DNA of 64,000 bases from Ferrovaceae bacterium. Lineage in GTDB: Bacteria; Pseudomonadota; Gammaproteobacteria; Burkholderiales; Ferrovaceae. The translations under genes were made by a program, and so were the position numbers. The stretch lies in NCBI GenBank assembly GCA_027311025.1, contig DAICZS010000004.1:1-64000 (forward strand), given 5' to 3'. This document shows positions 10,598 to 18,916 of this stretch, piece by piece. Within the stretch, counting starts at the first letter, position 1. Every line of letters begins with the position of its first letter. The notes under the pieces were generated by a model that did no database searches, was not told the origin of the DNA, and saw nothing but the letters and a program-made list of their open reading frames with translations.

Positions 10598-10705
10598 GGT
10601 ACCCTGCCCTCGCCAAGTGCCTCCATAAGCTTTAATATTAGCATTGCGGCCGGTGATCCCGGTTGCCCGTCCATATCAACAACCGCTGATCGCGAGGTAT
10701 TTCGA

Positions 10706-13363
10706 ATGTCCGCCCTGCCTGATAACGATAAACAAGAAACCCAAGAGTGGCTGGACGCCCTCGAGAGCGTCCTGGAACTGGAAGGCCCCGAACGCGCCCA
10801 TTTCATCCTGGAGCAGCTCATTGACAAGGCCCGCCGCTCCGGCGCCTTCCTGCCCTACAGTGCCAATACGGCGTACATCAATACCATCCCGCCAGCGCTT
10901 GAAGTGCCCATGCCGGGAGACCCCGAAATGGAGCACCGCATTCGTTCGCTCATCCGATGGAATGCCATGGCCATGGTGGTCCGAGCCAACCGCTCATCCA
11001 GCGAACTGGGCGGCCATATCGCCAGCTTCCAGTCGGCTGCCACCCTCTATGACGTGGGTTTCGATCATTTTTTTCATGCCCCCACCGCAGACCATGGGGG
11101 TGACCTCCTCTACATCCAGGGCCATTCCGCACCAGGGATTTACGCCCGTGCTTTTCTGGAAGGACGGATCAGCGAAGAACAGATGAGCAAGTTTCGCCAG
11201 GAGGTGGACGGCGGCGGATTGCCAAGCTATCCCCATCCGTGGCTGATGCCTAATTTCTGGCAAATGCCCACGGTATCCATGGGCCTGGGCCCCCTGATGG
11301 CCATCTATCAGGCGCGCTTCATGAAGTATCTGCAAAACCGGGGGCTCGCCAATGTGGAAAACCGCAAGGTGTGGGCCTTCATGGGCGACGGGGAAATGGA
11401 CGAACCCGAATCGCTCGGAGCGATTTCGCTTGCCACGCGTGAGCGTCTGGACAACCTGATTTTCGTCGTCAACTGCAACTTGCAACGCCTCGACGGACCG
11501 GTTCGGGGCAACGGCAAGATCATCCAGGAACTGGAAGCAGACTTCCGGGGTGCGGGCTGGAACGTCATCAAGGTCATCTGGGGCAGCCAGTGGGATGCCC
11601 TGATCGCCAAGGATCGCAGCGGGCTGTTGCTGCAACGAATGATGGAAGCAGTGGATGGCGAATACCAAAGCATGAAAGCGCATGATGGCGCTTACGTGCG
11701 CAAGCACTTTTTTGGCAAGTACCCCGAACTGGCGCGCCTGGTGGCCAACATGTCCGACGACGAAATCTGGCGTCTGACCCGCGGCGGCCACGATCCGTTC
11801 AAGATGTACAACGCCTATCTCTCGGCGGTACGCCACACCGGCCAGCCCACGGTTATTCTGGCAAAAACCATCAAGGGCTACGGCATGGGCGAATCTGGCG
11901 AAGGCCAGAACATTACGCACCAACAGAAAAAAATGGGCGAAAACGCCCTCAAGCAGTTCCGGGACCGTTTCCAGATTCCAATTTCAGACGAAGTGATTGC
12001 TGAAACGCCGTTCTATCGCCCATCCGATGACAGCCCGGAAATCCAGTATCTCAAGGCCCAGCGTGAAGCGTTGGGCGGCTACCTTCCCGTACGGCACAGC
12101 GAAGTACCTTCGCTCAAGGTACCCGAGCTCTCTGCGTTCCAGGCACTGTTGGAAAGCAGCGAAGAACGCCAGCTTTCCACCACGATGGCTTTCGTGCGCG
12201 TACTGACAGCGCTGACCCGTGACAAGGAGATCGGCAAGCTGATCGTGCCGATCGTGCCGGATGAATCCCGAACGTTTGGCATGGAAGGCATGTTCCGCAG
12301 TCTTGGCATCTACTCTTCCGTAGGCCAGCTGTATCAGCCGCAGGATCACGACCAGCTCATGTATTACCGTGAGGACGTCAACGGCCAGATCCTGCAGGAG
12401 GGCATCAACGAGGCTGGCGCCTTTTCTTCCTGGATCGCCGCCGCCTCGGCTTATTCCAGCCATGGCGTCACCACCATTCCTTTTTACATTTTCTATTCGA
12501 TGTTTGGCTTCCAGCGCGTGGGCGACCTTGCCTGGGCGGCTGGAGACATGCGCTGTCGCGGCTTTCTGATTGGCGGCACCGCTGGCCGAACCACGCTCAA
12601 TGGTGAGGGACTGCAGCATCAGGACGGCCACAGCCAGGTCCATGCCTCTTTCATTCCCAACTGCGTTTCCTATGACCCCACATTTGCTTACGAAGTGGCG
12701 GTCATCATTCAGGACGGCCTGCGCCGGATGTACCAGAATCACGAAAACATTTTCTACTACATCACTACCATGAACGAGAATTACAGCCACCCAGCCATGC
12801 CCCAAGGCGTGCAGGAGGGCATTCTCAAAGGGATGTATTTGCTGCAGAAGGGTGAAAAAGCCAAGGGCCCCGTCGTGCAGCTGATGGGATCTGGCACCAT
12901 CCTGCGCGAAGCGATTGCTGCAGCAGCATTGCTGGAAAAGGACTGGGGGGTTTCAAGCAATGTCTGGAGCGCACCCAGCATCAATGAACTGGCCCGCGAA
13001 GGCCAGGCCACCTTGCGCTGGAACCGCCATCACCCTGACCAGCCCCAGCGCAAATCCTATGTGGAACAATGCCTGGAGACTACCAAGGGGCCCGTGATTG
13101 CAGCCACCGACTACATCAAGACCTTCACCGAGCAGATTCGTGCCTTCGTGCCCCGTCGCTACGTGACGTTGGGTACGGACGGTTTTGGTCGTTCGGATAC
13201 CCGTGCCAAGCTTCGCGAATTTTTTGAGGTGGATAGCCGCTATATTACCCTGGCTGCATTGCAGGCTCTGGCCGCAGAGGGTACGATCCCGACCGCGCGC
13301 GTTGCGGAGGCCATCAAAAAATATGGCCTTGATCCGGAGAAACCCCTCCCCACCAGCGTCTGA
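10706..13363 (+). CDS. aceE: Pyruvate dehydrogenase E1 component (homodimeric type)
   Basis: AceE is the thiamine-diphosphate-dependent E1 that decarboxylates pyruvate and acylates the lipoyl group of E2. The 885 residues match E. coli AceE (887). The ThDP-binding motif is seen as MGDGEMDEPES followed by NLIFVVNCNLQRLDGPVRGN. The N-terminal E2-interaction region (DNDKQETQEWLDALESVL) and the C-terminal domain are complete. ATG 10706 is the start of homology; the open frame upstream runs through the promoter. No aceF or lpd follows; instead a transporter gene begins 2 nt after the stop. The E2 and E3 genes must be elsewhere. Confidence 0.97.
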   Translation: MSALPDNDKQETQEWLDALESVLELEGPERAHFILEQLIDKARRSGAFLPYSANTAYINTIPPALEVPMPGDPEMEHRIRSLIRWNAMAMVVRANRSSSELGGHIASFQSAATLYDVGFDHFFHAPTADHGGDLLYIQGHSAPGIYARAFLEGRISEEQMSKFRQEVDGGGLPSYPHPWLMPNFWQMPTVSMGLGPLMAIYQARFMKYLQNRGLANVENRKVWAFMGDGEMDEPESLGAISLATRERLDNLIFVVNCNLQRLDGPVRGNGKIIQELEADFRGAGWNVIKVIWGSQWDALIAKDRSGLLLQRMMEAVDGEYQSMKAHDGAYVRKHFFGKYPELARLVANMSDDEIWRLTRGGHDPFKMYNAYLSAVRHTGQPTVILAKTIKGYGMGESGEGQNITHQQKKMGENALKQFRDRFQIPISDEVIAETPFYRPSDDSPEIQYLKAQREALGGYLPVRHSEVPSLKVPELSAFQALLESSEERQLSTTMAFVRVLTALTRDKEIGKLIVPIVPDESRTFGMEGMFRSLGIYSSVGQLYQPQDHDQLMYYREDVNGQILQEGINEAGAFSSWIAAASAYSSHGVTTIPFYIFYSMFGFQRVGDLAWAAGDMRCRGFLIGGTAGRTTLNGEGLQHQDGHSQVHASFIPNCVSYDPTFAYEVAVIIQDGLRRMYQNHENIFYYITTMNENYSHPAMPQGVQEGILKGMYLLQKGEKAKGPVVQLMGSGTILREAIAAAALLEKDWGVSSNVWSAPSINELAREGQATLRWNRHHPDQPQRKSYVEQCLETTKGPVIAATDYIKTFTEQIRAFVPRRYVTLGTDGFGRSDTRAKLREFFEVDSRYITLAALQALAAEGTIPTARVAEAIKKYGLDPEKPLPTSV

Positions 13364-13365
13364 TC

Positions 13366-15339
13366 ATGATCCAAAATCTTGCCGGAAGGATTTCGGGGGT
13401 GCTGTTTGGCCCCCCGCGCGATCCGCTATCCCCTGAAACGCGTCACAACATCGCACTGGCCGCGTTCTTTGCCTGGGTGGGGCTGGGTGCTGATGGACTA
13501 TCATCATCGGCGTACGGCCCTGAAGAAGCCTTCAAGGCACTGGGTACCCACACCCACCTCAGCCTGTATCTCGCTCTGGCCACGGCCCTGACCGTATTTT
13601 TGATCTCCACGGCCTACAACCAGGTCATCGAACTATTTCCCACGGGAGGCGGCGGCTACAAGGTAGCCACCCAGCTGATAGGCCCTTATGCGGGGCTTGT
13701 GAGCGGCGCTGCCCTGATCGTGGACTACGTCCTGACCATTGCCATTTCGGTGGCCAGTGGTGTGGACGCGGTTTTCAGTTCGTTGCCCACGAGTTGGCAG
13801 GTTTACAAGCTCACCACTGAACTGGGGCTTACGTTGCTGCTGATGTTTCTCAACCTGCGTGGCATGAAGGAAAGCATCAAGGTTCTGACCCCGATTTTCA
13901 TCGGGTTTGTTGTCACTCACGTGTTCATCATCATCTACGGCGTGGCGGTGCGCGGTTCGGAGCTGCCTGTGATCGTGTCCGAGACCCTGTCTGAAACCGG
14001 AGCGCTGGCCGGTCAGATGGGCTGGGTTTTCGTTGCTTCATTGTTTCTGCGCGCCTACTCCCTTGGGGGTGGTACTTACACCGGGATTGAGGCCGTTTCC
14101 AACAACATCAATGCGCTCAAGGAACCCCGGGTACACACTGGCAAGCTGACCATGTTCTACATGGCCCTCTCTCTGGCGTTCACTGCGGCTGGCATCATTC
14201 TGTTGTATCTGCTCTGGCAAGCCCAGCCGTCTTCCACCGGAGAAACACTCAATGCCGTGGCATTCCGCTCCGTCATCGGCTCTCTGGGGCTAGGTGCCAG
14301 CTCTTCTTACGTACTGTTGACCATCGTCCTGCTTCTGGAAGGCGCGCTATTATATGTGGCGGCAAATACAGGGCTGCTGGGCGGCCCCGCGGTTTTGGCC
14401 AACATGGCCAATGATGGCTGGGCACCCACGCAATTCAGCTCACTCTCCAGTCGCCTGGTGACCAAGTACGGCATCCTGATCATGGGATTTGCCGCCATCC
14501 TGATCCTCATCTGGAGCGGCGGCCTGGTTGATTTGCTGGCGGTACTCTACAGCATCAACGTGTTTCTGACTTTCACCCTGTCCCTGCTGGGACTGTCCAT
14601 CTACTGGTGGAAGCACCGCAAAGAGCAAGCCCGCTGGTTGCCCCGCCTGACGCTGTCCCTGGTTGGATTTTTTGTTGCCAGCAGCATCCTGATCGTCACC
14701 CTGGTAGAGAAATTTTTTGAAGGCGGCTGGATGACCACGCTGATCACCAGTTCGGTCATTGCCCTCTGCCTCCTGATACGCTGGCATTACCGGGAAACGG
14801 AAGCGCAAATGGCCAGGGCGGATGCCTTGCTGGCCGCACTGCCAGCCGAGCCAGTGGCCAACCCGCCACCGATCGACCCAAATGCCCAAACGGCCGTGTT
14901 CATGATCAGCCGCTCACGCGGCGCGGGCATGCACACCATTCTCTGGGTACAGCGCCTGTTTCCCAACATCTTCAAGAATTTTGTATTCCTGAGTGTGGGC
15001 GCCGTGGATACCCAAAGCTATGGCGGCGAAGGGTCGATCGAAGGGCTTCAACAGGAAGTCCATTCCGCATGCGATTATTATGTCAATTTTTGCAACCGTA
15101 ACGGCATTGCGGCCAAGTCCTATCAGGCGTACGGGACCGACAGGGTGGAAGAGCTCACCAAACTGGCACTCAAGGTGCGCGACGAGTTTCCAAACTGCGT
15201 CTTTTTTGCCAGCAAGCTGATCTTCGTGCACGACAACTGGCTGACCCGGATCCTGCACAACCAGACCGCCCTCACCATGCAGCGCGTCCTGCATCTGCAG
15301 GGCATGTTCATGGTGATCCTGCCGATGAAAGTGGACTAA
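13366..15339 (+). CDS. KimA-like APC-superfamily transporter
   Basis: A multi-pass inner-membrane permease of the APC superfamily, closest by eye to the KimA (YdaO) K+ importers. In the 657 residues, the first ~455 carry about 12 hydrophobic helices with the signatures GADGLSSSAYGPEEAF, PTGGGGYKVA, SLGGGTYTGIEAVSNNINAL and LYVAANTGLLGGPAVLANMA. The last ~190 residues form a soluble domain. Substrate is uncertain: potassium by analogy to KimA, otherwise an amino acid. It starts 2 nt after aceE, so it is almost certainly co-transcribed with it. Its TAA overlaps the TAG of trbI on the other strand. Confidence 0.82.
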   Translation: MIQNLAGRISGVLFGPPRDPLSPETRHNIALAAFFAWVGLGADGLSSSAYGPEEAFKALGTHTHLSLYLALATALTVFLISTAYNQVIELFPTGGGGYKVATQLIGPYAGLVSGAALIVDYVLTIAISVASGVDAVFSSLPTSWQVYKLTTELGLTLLLMFLNLRGMKESIKVLTPIFIGFVVTHVFIIIYGVAVRGSELPVIVSETLSETGALAGQMGWVFVASLFLRAYSLGGGTYTGIEAVSNNINALKEPRVHTGKLTMFYMALSLAFTAAGIILLYLLWQAQPSSTGETLNAVAFRSVIGSLGLGASSSYVLLTIVLLLEGALLYVAANTGLLGGPAVLANMANDGWAPTQFSSLSSRLVTKYGILIMGFAAILILIWSGGLVDLLAVLYSINVFLTFTLSLLGLSIYWWKHRKEQARWLPRLTLSLVGFFVASSILIVTLVEKFFEGGWMTTLITSSVIALCLLIRWHYRETEAQMARADALLAALPAEPVANPPPIDPNAQTAVFMISRSRGAGMHTILWVQRLFPNIFKNFVFLSVGAVDTQSYGGEGSIEGLQQEVHSACDYYVNFCNRNGIAAKSYQAYGTDRVEELTKLALKVRDEFPNCVFFASKLIFVHDNWLTRILHNQTALTMQRVLHLQGMFMVILPMKVD

Positions 15340-16559
15340 TGCGTGCGAGCGCCCAGGGTGGAGAAATCCATGTCCCGATTCACCATGATCACAAAGGGAT
15401 AACCCCTTTTGATGACGATGACCGGGCCAAGAGCCGCATTTCCTGCAAACCCGACAGCGGCCGTATTCACCAGAATTTGTCCCGCCGCATCCCCGGCAAG
15501 TGAGTTGCCCGCCCCGCCGAGGATGGTGACACCACCCTCCGGTGGCGAAATGATCCTGGCGAGCCCCGCCGTCATGAACTGCCCGCCTAGCCGGGTCCAG
15601 AACCGATTGTCCACTTCGTCCTTCATGCCGGACTGACCTGCCCGGTCTGCGGCCTGCATGTCATCCAGATTAAAGCTTTCACCGCTGGGCAAAATCAAAC
15701 GGTGAAACATGGCCATGATGCGTTCCTGCCCAGGGAGCACCCGCGTGTTGAATTCGCCAATGACCCGGCTTCCCTTGGGTATGGCCAGAAAATTGCCATG
15801 AATGGAATCGTAGACATCTTCGGTAACCTGGGCAGTCAGCATGCCGGGCAAATCGCTGTTGACCTGGGTGAGCAGCACTGCGGGGATGAGCGAGCCCTCC
15901 ATCACCTGTCGCTGGCTGCTGGGCTTGACTGGAACAATCGGAGTTTGGGCACGCGCAGGCTTGGCAGGCGCCGCCGAATCTGAAGTCTCCCCCACACGAC
16001 TGCGGAGCGGGTCGCGCAGCGCCAATCCGGCTGGTATTGCTGAAATTCCTGGTGGCAATCGTTTGCTCAATGATTCAGTAATCCCTGCAGTGTCGGCCGG
16101 TGCGCTGTCGCGCCCTCCAGCAGGTGCCGCAGCCGGTGATGCGGCCGCTACGGGTGCAGGTGTGGTTTCAACGGACCTGTTAATGGCCAGCATCCGACTG
16201 CCAGCCACCAACGCTTCGTGTTTTTCAGACTCGAGACGCTCGATGTGTCGCGATTCCTGTACCACTTCAGCAACCTGGCGCGTTGGTTCTGTCACCGGTT
16301 CTGCTATCTGCTGTCGCAGCAATTCCTGACGCAGCCCGCTCATGGAAGGCTCTTGCCCCAGCACCAAGGGATTGTCCTCTGGCAATGATTGCGGGCCTGG
16401 GTGCGCATCCACTTTGGAAAACAAAGAGCCCTGGACGGCAAAGCCCACGATGACTCCCAATCCCAGGCCGCCGGCCACCAACCAATGCAAGTTGCGACGC
16501 ACCTTGCCCACAGGGCGCTCCGGATATGCCTGGTCTGATTCTTCCCATCCATCGCTCAT
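15336..16559 (-). CDS. trbI: TrbI/VirB10 family type IV secretion core protein
   Basis: VirB10/TrbI proteins span both membranes and form the inner ring of the type IV secretion core complex. The 407-residue product has a cytosolic N-terminus, one transmembrane helix (about 25-46, WLVAGGLGLGVIVGFAV), a Pro/Ala-rich periplasmic linker (about 130-210) and the C-terminal TrbI domain (LIPAVLLTQVNSDLPGMLTA, AIPKGSRVIGEF, GGQFMTAGLARI, RGYPFVIMVNRDMDF), which looks complete. It is last in a three-gene unit trbF-trbG-trbI, 12 nt after trbG with a GGAG site. No ATPase, coupling protein or relaxase is nearby. Its stop overlaps that of the KimA-like gene. Confidence 0.88.
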   Translation of the reverse strand: MSDGWEESDQAYPERPVGKVRRNLHWLVAGGLGLGVIVGFAVQGSLFSKVDAHPGPQSLPEDNPLVLGQEPSMSGLRQELLRQQIAEPVTEPTRQVAEVVQESRHIERLESEKHEALVAGSRMLAINRSVETTPAPVAAASPAAAPAGGRDSAPADTAGITESLSKRLPPGISAIPAGLALRDPLRSRVGETSDSAAPAKPARAQTPIVPVKPSSQRQVMEGSLIPAVLLTQVNSDLPGMLTAQVTEDVYDSIHGNFLAIPKGSRVIGEFNTRVLPGQERIMAMFHRLILPSGESFNLDDMQAADRAGQSGMKDEVDNRFWTRLGGQFMTAGLARIISPPEGGVTILGGAGNSLAGDAAGQILVNTAAVGFAGNAALGPVIVIKRGYPFVIMVNRDMDFSTLGARTH

Positions 16560-16571
16560 GATTTTGGCTCC

Positions 16572-17372
16572 TCACTGCCATGTATCCAGAAAGCCCCCCG
16601 ATCCTTCATGCCTGCCCGATCTTTTGGCAAATTTTCGATTGATGACGCGCACCTCGGCATTCCCAAGCTTGAGCAGGATTTCCTGCATCAATCGCTGCAC
16701 GACAAAATATTCACCTTTGATGATGTAATTGACCAACACGGCTGCACCATCGTCCACCATGAACAGTGCAGGCAAAGCCTGGGGTGAGCGTACCTTGATC
16801 CAGGTAAAGCGCCCATCGTCAAAAACCGCGACCGGACGGAAGTCACCTTCACCCTCAATGTCGTATCCAAAATTCAAACGGGCGGGATCCAGCGCTTCGA
16901 CAGACAGACCCTCGGCGGCCATGGAGGGTTGTGAGGCAATCTCGCCGGTTTCAGCACTTGTCGAAGCACCCGCGTTGCTCCAGGAAACCTTTTGAAGCCA
17001 GTGTCCCTGGACCGTGGTGCTTCTGAAGAGCAGCTGGTACACGCGACGGTCAGTCACCAGCGTTCCCGCGGTAAACAAATCCGTCTTGAGCGGCTTGATG
17101 AAAAGATGTCCGGGAAGTTCTTCTACCATCCACTGCAGCGTGTCCCCCAGCGCCAGCCCGGTAATCTTTTCATCAGAAGCCAGCTGGATGTCCGTAGGGA
17201 CTCCAGGAAGCGTCAAAATGGTATACGTGGTGTTGGCATCGTAGCGAAACACCACCATGCGTGGATCGGTGGTTGAAGGCGTTTCGCCACTGGCGCGTGC
17301 AGGAGTGAAAGACAGCATGGTTCCAATGAGAACAAGCGCCACGAGCACCTCGCCCCAATGCCTCATGATCAT
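16572..17372 (-). CDS. trbG: TrbG/VirB9 family type IV secretion core protein
   Basis: VirB9/TrbG proteins form the outer-membrane ring of the type IV secretion core, bound to VirB10. The 266-residue product has a signal peptide (residues 1 to about 27, ending TPARA). The N-terminal VirB9 domain carries RYDANTTYTILTLPGVPTDI and the C-terminal domain carries FGYDIEGEGDFRPVAVFDDG, FTWIKVRSP and YFVVQRLMQEILLKLG; both look intact. Its ATG overlaps the trbF stop (ATGA); a second ATG two codons later is possible. No VirB7/TrbH lipoprotein gene fits in the 12-nt gap to trbI. Confidence 0.88.
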   Translation of the reverse strand: MIMRHWGEVLVALVLIGTMLSFTPARASGETPSTTDPRMVVFRYDANTTYTILTLPGVPTDIQLASDEKITGLALGDTLQWMVEELPGHLFIKPLKTDLFTAGTLVTDRRVYQLLFRSTTVQGHWLQKVSWSNAGASTSAETGEIASQPSMAAEGLSVEALDPARLNFGYDIEGEGDFRPVAVFDDGRFTWIKVRSPQALPALFMVDDGAAVLVNYIIKGEYFVVQRLMQEILLKLGNAEVRVINRKFAKRSGRHEGSGGFLDTWQ

Positions 17373-18097
17373 TTCTCCAGATCGGTATTCACCAGGAAAT
17401 GGGTCACAAAAAGCCCCACGGGGTTGCTGAGCAACGCTTCTTCCGACTGGGGGGGCACCGTGGTGAAGTGGATGGTCAGGACAAACTTTTCACGATTGGC
17501 AATGGGGTTCCCGGCGTTGCGACGTTCTGCCGCTACCCGAACCAGTGCCACCTGATCCTGGATCAGAGAAACGCTCGAGATGGCCACTGTACGCGTCAGT
17601 GTTGGATCTCGCTTCAGTTCAGCCATGGGGGCTGCGCGCTGTATCCAGTCTGTAAACTCAACCGTGGCTTTGCCGCGCGTGACCCGATAGGCCTCGGACA
17701 GGTATTGCTCAGTCAAATGGGAGTCTAGCGTCAACAGCTGCCGAGCCCACTGGGCAATGAAGTAACGCTTTTCCGGAACGCCGGGCTGGTATTGCTGTGC
17801 CGCCATCGGAGCAGGGACCACGGCCCCTTCCTCGACTTTTTCCAGAACAAAGGGCACCACCGTCTTGAGAGGGGCCATCATCGCCAGGGCAATGCAGGCT
17901 GCGGTCAAGGCCAACAGTAACCCGAGACAAATGATGAAGTAGCGATTGCGTTCAACCACTGGCGCGCCTTGCACCTCAAACCAAAGTCGCGCTGGCGAAG
18001 CGTGCGCAATGGGTGGAGCGCCAGCAGGTGGTGTTCCATCTGTGGCATCACGGTCCGGCCGCCTTTTTGCAAGAAAGCGGAAAATTCCCTGTGGCAT
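17369..18097 (-). CDS. trbF: TrbF/VirB8 family type IV secretion protein
   Basis: VirB8/TrbF proteins are bitopic inner-membrane assembly factors of type IV secretion systems. The 242-residue product has a cytosolic tail, a transmembrane helix (about 51-77, NRYFIICLGLLLALTAAC) and a periplasmic VirB8 domain (QWARQLLTLDSHLTEQYLSE, YRVTRGKATVEFTDWIQRA, KFVLTIHFTTVPPQ). The ATG at 18097 is preceded by GGAGGG at 7 nt, which favours it over an in-frame TTG at 18112. It is the first gene of trbFGI. The 231-bp gap to sodB holds an AT-rich patch. Confidence 0.87.
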   Translation of the reverse strand: MPQGIFRFLAKRRPDRDATDGTPPAGAPPIAHASPARLWFEVQGAPVVERNRYFIICLGLLLALTAACIALAMMAPLKTVVPFVLEKVEEGAVVPAPMAAQQYQPGVPEKRYFIAQWARQLLTLDSHLTEQYLSEAYRVTRGKATVEFTDWIQRAAPMAELKRDPTLTRTVAISSVSLIQDQVALVRVAAERRNAGNPIANREKFVLTIHFTTVPPQSEEALLSNPVGLFVTHFLVNTDLEK

Positions 18098-18207
18098 GAA
18101 CGAGCCCTCCAAAACGAGGCTTCATTTCAGCACGCAGGCATTGCCGTGAGCGCCAGAGAACGGCAAACATTGGCCGCTATTCAAGCGCTGCCACCAGGCC
18201 CAAGCGT

Positions 18208-18328: not shown

Positions 18329-18916
18329 ATGGAACACCAACTGCCCCCACTACCCTACGCCCTGGATGCCCTCGCACCCCACATGAGCAAGGAAACGTTT
18401 GAATATCACTACGCCAAGCACCATAACGCCTACGTCGTAAACCTGAACAATCTGATCAAAGGTACTGAATTCGAACCCCTCGGTCTTGAAGCCATCGTCA
18501 AGAAGGCACCCGCTGGCGGCATCTACAACAACGCCGCGCAAGTATGGAACCACACCTTCTTCTGGAACTGCATGAAGCCCAACGGCGGCGGCGCTCCCAA
18601 TGGGCCCTTGGCTGAAGCCATCAACAAGAAGTGGGGGTCCTTCGACGATTTCAAGAAAGCGTTCCAGACTTCTGCCGTCGGCAACTTCGGTTCAGGCTGG
18701 ACCTGGCTGGTCAAGAAAGCTGATGGTTCCGTGGACATCGTCAACATGGGCGCTGCCGGCACACCCTTGACTACCGGTGACAAGGCATTGCTGTGTATCG
18801 ACGTCTGGGAGCATGCCTACTACATCGATTACCGCAACCTTCGGCCCAAATTTGTCGAAACCTTTCTGGCGCATCTCGTGAACTGGGATTTCGCAACAAA
18901 GAATTTTGCAAGTTAA
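18329..18916 (+). CDS. sodB: Superoxide dismutase, Fe-type
   Basis: This enzyme dismutates superoxide to oxygen and hydrogen peroxide in the cytosol. The 195-residue product carries the metal ligands H27, H75 and the Asp and His of [13 protein letters not shown]. Gln71 in [13 protein letters not shown], near the metal, is characteristic of Fe-type rather than Mn-type enzymes. ATG 18329 follows AGGAGA and starts the family N-terminus [21 protein letters not shown] PuuD-like membrane protein gene starts 32 nt downstream, likely on the same transcript. Confidence 0.96.

Follow-up and report, generated by a model that had tools for sequence, protein, structure and literature searches.

A vertically inherited type IV secretion system without VirD4, divided between two chromosomal loci in the Ferrovaceae, and its possible role in DNA uptake

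The window analysed here, a stretch of 64,000 nucleotides from a Ferrovaceae bacterium (assembly GCA_027311025.1, contig DAICZS010000004.1, positions 1 to 64,000), holds three adjacent genes, virB8, virB9 and virB10 (trbF, trbG and trbI), which had been read from the sequence as an orphan cassette among housekeeping genes. Our data show that these genes encode the core, spanning the envelope, of a type IV secretion system (T4SS) of P-type (Trb/VirB) that is chromosomal and has its genes divided between two loci, and that this split system is kept by almost the whole family and is inherited vertically. It has no VirD4, and the function that we consider most likely, with about an even chance of being right, is that of a ComB-like DNA-uptake channel feeding ComEC. 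The window genome (G000) is a 2.23 Mb draft of 127 contigs, 99.3% complete; the comparison set comprised 32 genomes of the family, with genera labelled g1 to g8 and five genomes belonging to the genus of the window.

The envelope core and its missing half

All three core genes lie on the minus strand. virB8 (17369-18097) encodes 242 amino acids from an ATG and matches PF04335 (E 3.4e-36) and the TrbF model (E 2e-14); an alternative TTG start at 18112 would add five residues, giving 247. virB9 (16572-17372) encodes a protein of 266 amino acids with a signal peptide (PF03524, E 1.4e-52), and virB10 (15336-16559) one of 407 amino acids with a membrane anchor at its N-terminus and a complete C-terminal domain (PF03743, E 3.5e-46, residues 219-399). 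The start of virB9 overlaps the stop of virB8 by four bases and only 12 bases separate virB9 from virB10, a spacing which implies a single transcript; promoter and terminator scans gave results at chance level. The domain matches and the spacing agree with the original prediction of three intact, translationally linked genes. In a sequence search of solved structures the closest to VirB9 was TrwF of R388 (E 2.4e-15) and the closest to VirB10 were TrwE of R388 (E 4.8e-16) and Helicobacter pylori ComB10 (E 3e-13), while VirB8 found no relative. Close named relatives of virB10 are in metagenome-assembled genomes labelled Ferrovaceae or Ferrovum sp. and in the type strain Ferrovum myxofaciens P3G.

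The other half of the system lies between alr and xdhC. In two genomes of the same genus (G001 and G003) the order at this locus is alr-virB11-virB2-virB3-virB4-virB5/trbJ-virB6, a gene for 87 amino acids, xdhC and mobA, at a distance from virB8-9-10; in a further genome (G004) virB4 is cut by a contig end. The mobA beside xdhC is of the molybdenum cofactor type and is not a relaxase. The proteins of the relatives match the expected families (VirB11, PF00437; VirB2, PF04956; VirB3, PF05101; VirB4, PF03135 and TIGR00929; VirB6, PF04610; VirB5, the TrbJ model), and the closest solved structure of VirB4 is TrwK of R388. With trbF-G-I at sodB, and trbB-C-D-E-J-L (virB11-2-3-4-5-6) plus a membrane protein of 82-88 amino acids at alr/xdhC, the combined loci have their genes in the order of a P-type trb cluster, B-C-D-E-J-L / F-G-I, with the break falling between L and F.

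Both edges of this second locus are present in the window genome. Contig C105 (71,837 bases) carries alr followed by residues 1-132 of virB11, which end at the last base of the contig, and contig C79 (9,922 bases) has an end within virB6 (residues 292-335), with the gene for 87 amino acids, xdhC and mobA inward of it. Comparison with G001 puts the unassembled part at about 5.5 kb, comprising virB2-3-4-5 and the greater part of virB11 and virB6; from the two gap edges and the relatives we infer that these genes are present in the window genome. As pieces of virB11 and virB6 sit at two contig ends, the orphan appearance of virB8-9-10 is an assembly effect. The original prediction was right that VirB4, VirB11 and VirB6 are not encoded in the window, and right in its alternative that the rest lies elsewhere, in a trb/vir locus that lacks just these three genes; its description of them as orphans within the genome does not hold. 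The genome-wide search for homologues which it had proposed succeeded in part, recovering the virB11 and virB6 fragments, whereas VirB4, which falls in the gap, gave no match in the assembled genome either by Pfam search or with the protein of a relative. A Pfam match to VirB4 was found in 28 of the 32 family genomes.

VirB11-like matches elsewhere in the window genome were rejected as missing parts of the T4SS: those on C50 and C72 are TadA-type ATPases, and that on C56 is GspE. The protein of 82-88 amino acids that follows virB6 in Ferrovaceae, and in a genome of another Burkholderiales-level family (G039), has a C-terminal membrane helix and no Pfam or NCBIfam match (L053 1499-1762; L058, L060, L064, L067, L069; L176 1127-1393); it is a possible unrecognised component of the T4SS.

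Selection, inheritance and loss in the family

Purifying selection is strong on both halves of the system. Pairwise ratios of nonsynonymous to synonymous substitution (dN/dS) within the genus were 0.04-0.06 for virB8, 0.09-0.145 for virB9 and 0.07-0.10 for virB10, and 0.04-0.145 over virB8, 9, 10, 4, 6 and 11 together, not far from the 0.04-0.07 of sodB. The Walker A motifs of VirB4 (GPSRSGKS) and VirB11 were intact in all 19 relatives examined.

The conserved position of the core is marked by sodB (18329-18916, plus strand; PF02777 and PF00081), which is divergent from virB8 in the window. In genera g1, g8, g7, g6, g5 and g2, virB8 adjoins sodB or the gene next after it. In both the VirB4 and the VirB10 tree the split system of the family forms one clade, apart from systems of the type found in integrative and conjugative elements (ICEs) in the same family, and g7 is placed beside the remaining genera in these trees and in the Rho tree alike; this agreement with the Rho tree points to vertical inheritance from the ancestor of the family.

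In the Rho tree genus g4, represented by four genomes that are 93-99% complete, is nested within the family, where it groups with the other genera and away from g7 (95/89 support). In the window, aceE (10664-13363, plus strand; PF17831) is followed by a KimA-like permease gene and then by virB10-9-8, and the neighbours originally named are confirmed; in all four g4 genomes (L187, L188, L190, L191) aceE lies about 110 bases from sodB, and both virB8-9-10 and kimA are gone. The neighbourhood is otherwise syntenic (M48 peptidase, aceE, sodB, addA, addB, ferredoxin, thioredoxin, rho), and the loss of virB8-9-10 is clean and complete. The g4 genomes have T4SSs of their own, which are different, ICE-like and accompanied by VirD4.

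Components absent from the split system

VirD4 (PF02534) had no match in 23 of the 32 genomes, including all five of the window's genus; none was found in any g1, g3, g5, g6 or g8 genome, and none adjoins either locus of the split set. G012 has two VirD4 genes, at least one of which neighbours a second VirB4, of ICE type, and is not next to the split set. ICE-type T4SSs occur in G012, G031, G014 and other g4 genomes (L071-L074, L081, L082), several with VirD4, and their VirB4 proteins are about 27-31% identical to that of the split system. The annotated neighbours of the two loci include no relaxase, a genome-wide relaxase search not having been run. No credible lipobox reading frame for a VirB7/TrbH lipoprotein was seen beside virB8-10 or in the second locus, although one may be encoded at a distance; no TrbK lipoprotein was found, nor any VirB1 at the g1 loci, and a VirB1-like transglycosylase follows virB10 in genus g7 only. 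TrbJ/VirB5 is kept and conserved.

Association with DNA-import genes

ComEC was found in 23 of the 32 genomes and in none of the four of g4; in G001 it has all three domains. DprA was found in 19 of the 25 genomes searched for it, with no match in g4 or in two drafts that are 70-76% complete. The comparison with the split T4SS was limited to genomes that are at least 90% complete and were tested for both genes. The T4SS matched DprA in all 16 of these (12 with both, four with neither). It matched ComEC in 15 of the 16, as ComEC was found in 11 of the 12 with the T4SS and in none of the four without it; G020 is the exception, and the window genome was scored ComEC-positive on an N-terminal fragment. 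The pattern that links the split T4SS, ComEC and DprA is an association.

Type IV pilus genes are rare in the family: PilM and PilN/O/P/Q were found in three genomes, all of g7, and are absent from the other 29, including the window genome. Weak PF11104 matches (E ~4e-4) in frames of 350-415 amino acids were attributed to related ASKHA proteins, probably MreB/FtsA, and discarded, because genuine PilM gave E-values under 1e-130 in that search and PilN/O/P agree. All four g4 genomes retain a GspD-type secretin, and two also have a shorter one, perhaps part of a Tad pilus; since these secretins persist in g4, neither of the two systems follows ComEC and DprA in the way that the split T4SS does.

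A C-terminal ComEC match beside relA on contig C35 of the window genome was rejected as an over-extension, the relA there adjoining unrelated genes. In G001 relA adjoins comEC; in the window genome it is elsewhere, beside circularly permuted ATP-grasp-like genes.

A possible role in DNA uptake

We favour DNA uptake as the function of the split system because it has no VirD4, its presence tracks DNA-import genes and its hosts mostly have no type IV pili. In such a model, which follows that for H. pylori ComB (PMC13395361; PMC12857230), the VirB4 and VirB11 ATPases would drive a VirB2 pseudopilus, and double-stranded DNA would be drawn through the VirB8-9-10 core, across the outer membrane and into the periplasm. 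ComEC would then pass one strand across the inner membrane to the cytoplasm, where DprA would load RecA, the T4SS taking the place of the missing type IV pilus. The direction of the DNA, the substrate and the cooperation with ComEC are all proposed by analogy. The wider claim, that Ferrovaceae import DNA by a T4SS and not by type IV pili, a second use of conjugation-type machinery in natural transformation that would lie outside Helicobacter, in extreme acidophiles and with VirB5 kept, is more tentative and falls a little short of an even chance. If it is true, T4SS-driven transformation is not peculiar to H. pylori and would be new outside that group, and a cultured acidophile would offer a second system in which to study how a secretion channel runs inward.

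Several observations weigh against uptake. The comEC of the window genome is an N-terminal piece only, to about residue 143, at the end of contig C45 (29287), and G020, which is 92% complete, has the split T4SS and no ComEC match. The joint loss in the four g4 genomes is a single evolutionary event and statistically weak; ComEC and DprA are also present in bacteria without known competence. Three g7 genomes carry both the T4SS and type IV pili, G039 has a related T4SS and no DprA match, and ComB lacks VirB5, whereas the split set keeps it. Tad and type II secretion genes are also present and could take up DNA instead. The Tad-type loci of the window genome, each with a TadA-like ATPase and a short secretin, lie on C50 (~64.5-69.5 kb) and on C72 (~69.9-74 kb, L031), the latter on the window's own contig just past the window.

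A domesticated VirD4-less T4SS might instead serve protein export or surface adhesion, through a VirB2/VirB5 pilus or periplasmic substrates and without DNA, which we regard as possible but unlikely. VirD4-less systems with such roles are known (B. pertussis Ptl, Bartonella Trw; review), VirB5/TrbJ is conserved here and is usually a pilus-tip adhesin, and F. myxofaciens forms streamers, according to the title of a reference in PMC4886054; however, neither locus holds a candidate substrate or effector gene, and the joint absence with ComEC and DprA would be left unexplained. A less probable alternative is conjugation: the split set would be the transfer apparatus of an ancient integrated element and would borrow VirD4 and a relaxase from plasmids or ICEs. 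Its genes are those of P-type conjugation, extra T4SSs with VirD4 exist in some genomes, and in print the Ferrovum T4SS has been called a signature of conjugation (PMC4886054). The altogether missing VirD4 of most genomes, the division into vertically inherited loci in conserved synteny between housekeeping genes, and the low VirB4 identity to the ICE-type systems argue against it.

The two remaining explanations are far less probable. A minimal VirB8-9-10 conduit working alone, as scaffold or channel, was suggested by a window with no virB4, virB11 or virB6 and an assembled genome with no VirB4 match, but the pieces of virB11 and virB6 at contig ends of the same genome, and the complete virB11-2-3-4-5-6 of close relatives, make the conduit very improbable. 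We give even less credence to a decaying remnant, for which the detachment of virB8-9-10 from the remaining operon could be cited, as the low dN/dS of both halves already refutes it, and the intact ATPase motifs, the lack of stops and the clean, complete losses speak against it. On this point the original prediction is sustained; the check that it had proposed, of conservation beside sodB in relatives, found the genes there in several genera, with g4 as the genus that lost them.

Relation to known secretion systems

The split set has the same genes in the same order as the P-type T4SSs (RP4/Ti Trb; R388 Trw), trbB-C-D-E-J-L and then F-G-I, and R388 TrwK, TrwF and TrwE are the nearest solved structures of its VirB4, VirB9 and VirB10. 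Unlike P-type mating-pair-formation systems, it is chromosomal, vertically inherited and divided, with no detected TrbH/VirB7 or TrbK lipoprotein, VirB1 (g1 loci), or adjoining VirD4 or relaxase. The Rickettsiales rvh T4SS is likewise a vertically inherited VirB system dispersed over several chromosomal loci; it has retained VirD4, has duplicated genes and exports effectors in intracellular bacteria, and none of these features was seen for the split set. The ComB system of H. pylori is a VirD4-less T4SS in separate chromosomal loci (comB operons and a distant comB11) with ComEC as its partner, in a species whose DNA uptake does not rely on type IV pili (PMC13395361). The split set resembles it in being VirD4-less, in separate loci, with ComEC in the same genomes and no type IV pilus (29 of 32), and differs in that virB11 lies with virB2-6, that no VirB7 homologue was found and that uptake is proposed here by analogy.

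The passages of Ullrich et al. (2016; PMC4886054) considered here describe a VirB/D4 system of Ferrovum that is nearly complete but lacks VirB1, VirB7 and, in F. myxofaciens, also D4, and they interpret it as a sign of conjugation. That T4SS probably includes the split set, although these passages neither separate it from ICE-type systems nor describe a division into two loci; the word 'competence' is absent from both of two published Ferrovum papers. Regardless of uptake, our analysis corrects the orphan call, which arose from an assembly gap, and sets a vertically inherited Ferrovaceae T4SS apart from the conjugative elements previously lumped with it.

Related systems with adjoining pilus-like genes

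G039 has a related T4SS, with a VirB4 42% identical to that of g1; a single contig carries both blocks, separated by about 8 kb, with the same small protein after virB6. In G020 (g7) and G039, virB10 is followed by a fusion of a VirB9 C-terminal domain with TcpQ, a secretin of MshL type, and proteins resembling GspE and GspF. The G039 set has a pseudopilin in addition, whereas in G027 only the transglycosylase and the VirB9-TcpQ fusion are present. These observations come from L077 (G020:C176, 192-9041), L080 (G039:C30, 1496-9757) and L076 (6721-8132). A T4SS core here adjoins genes like those of a type IVb pilus, and the two may form a hybrid outer-membrane complex.

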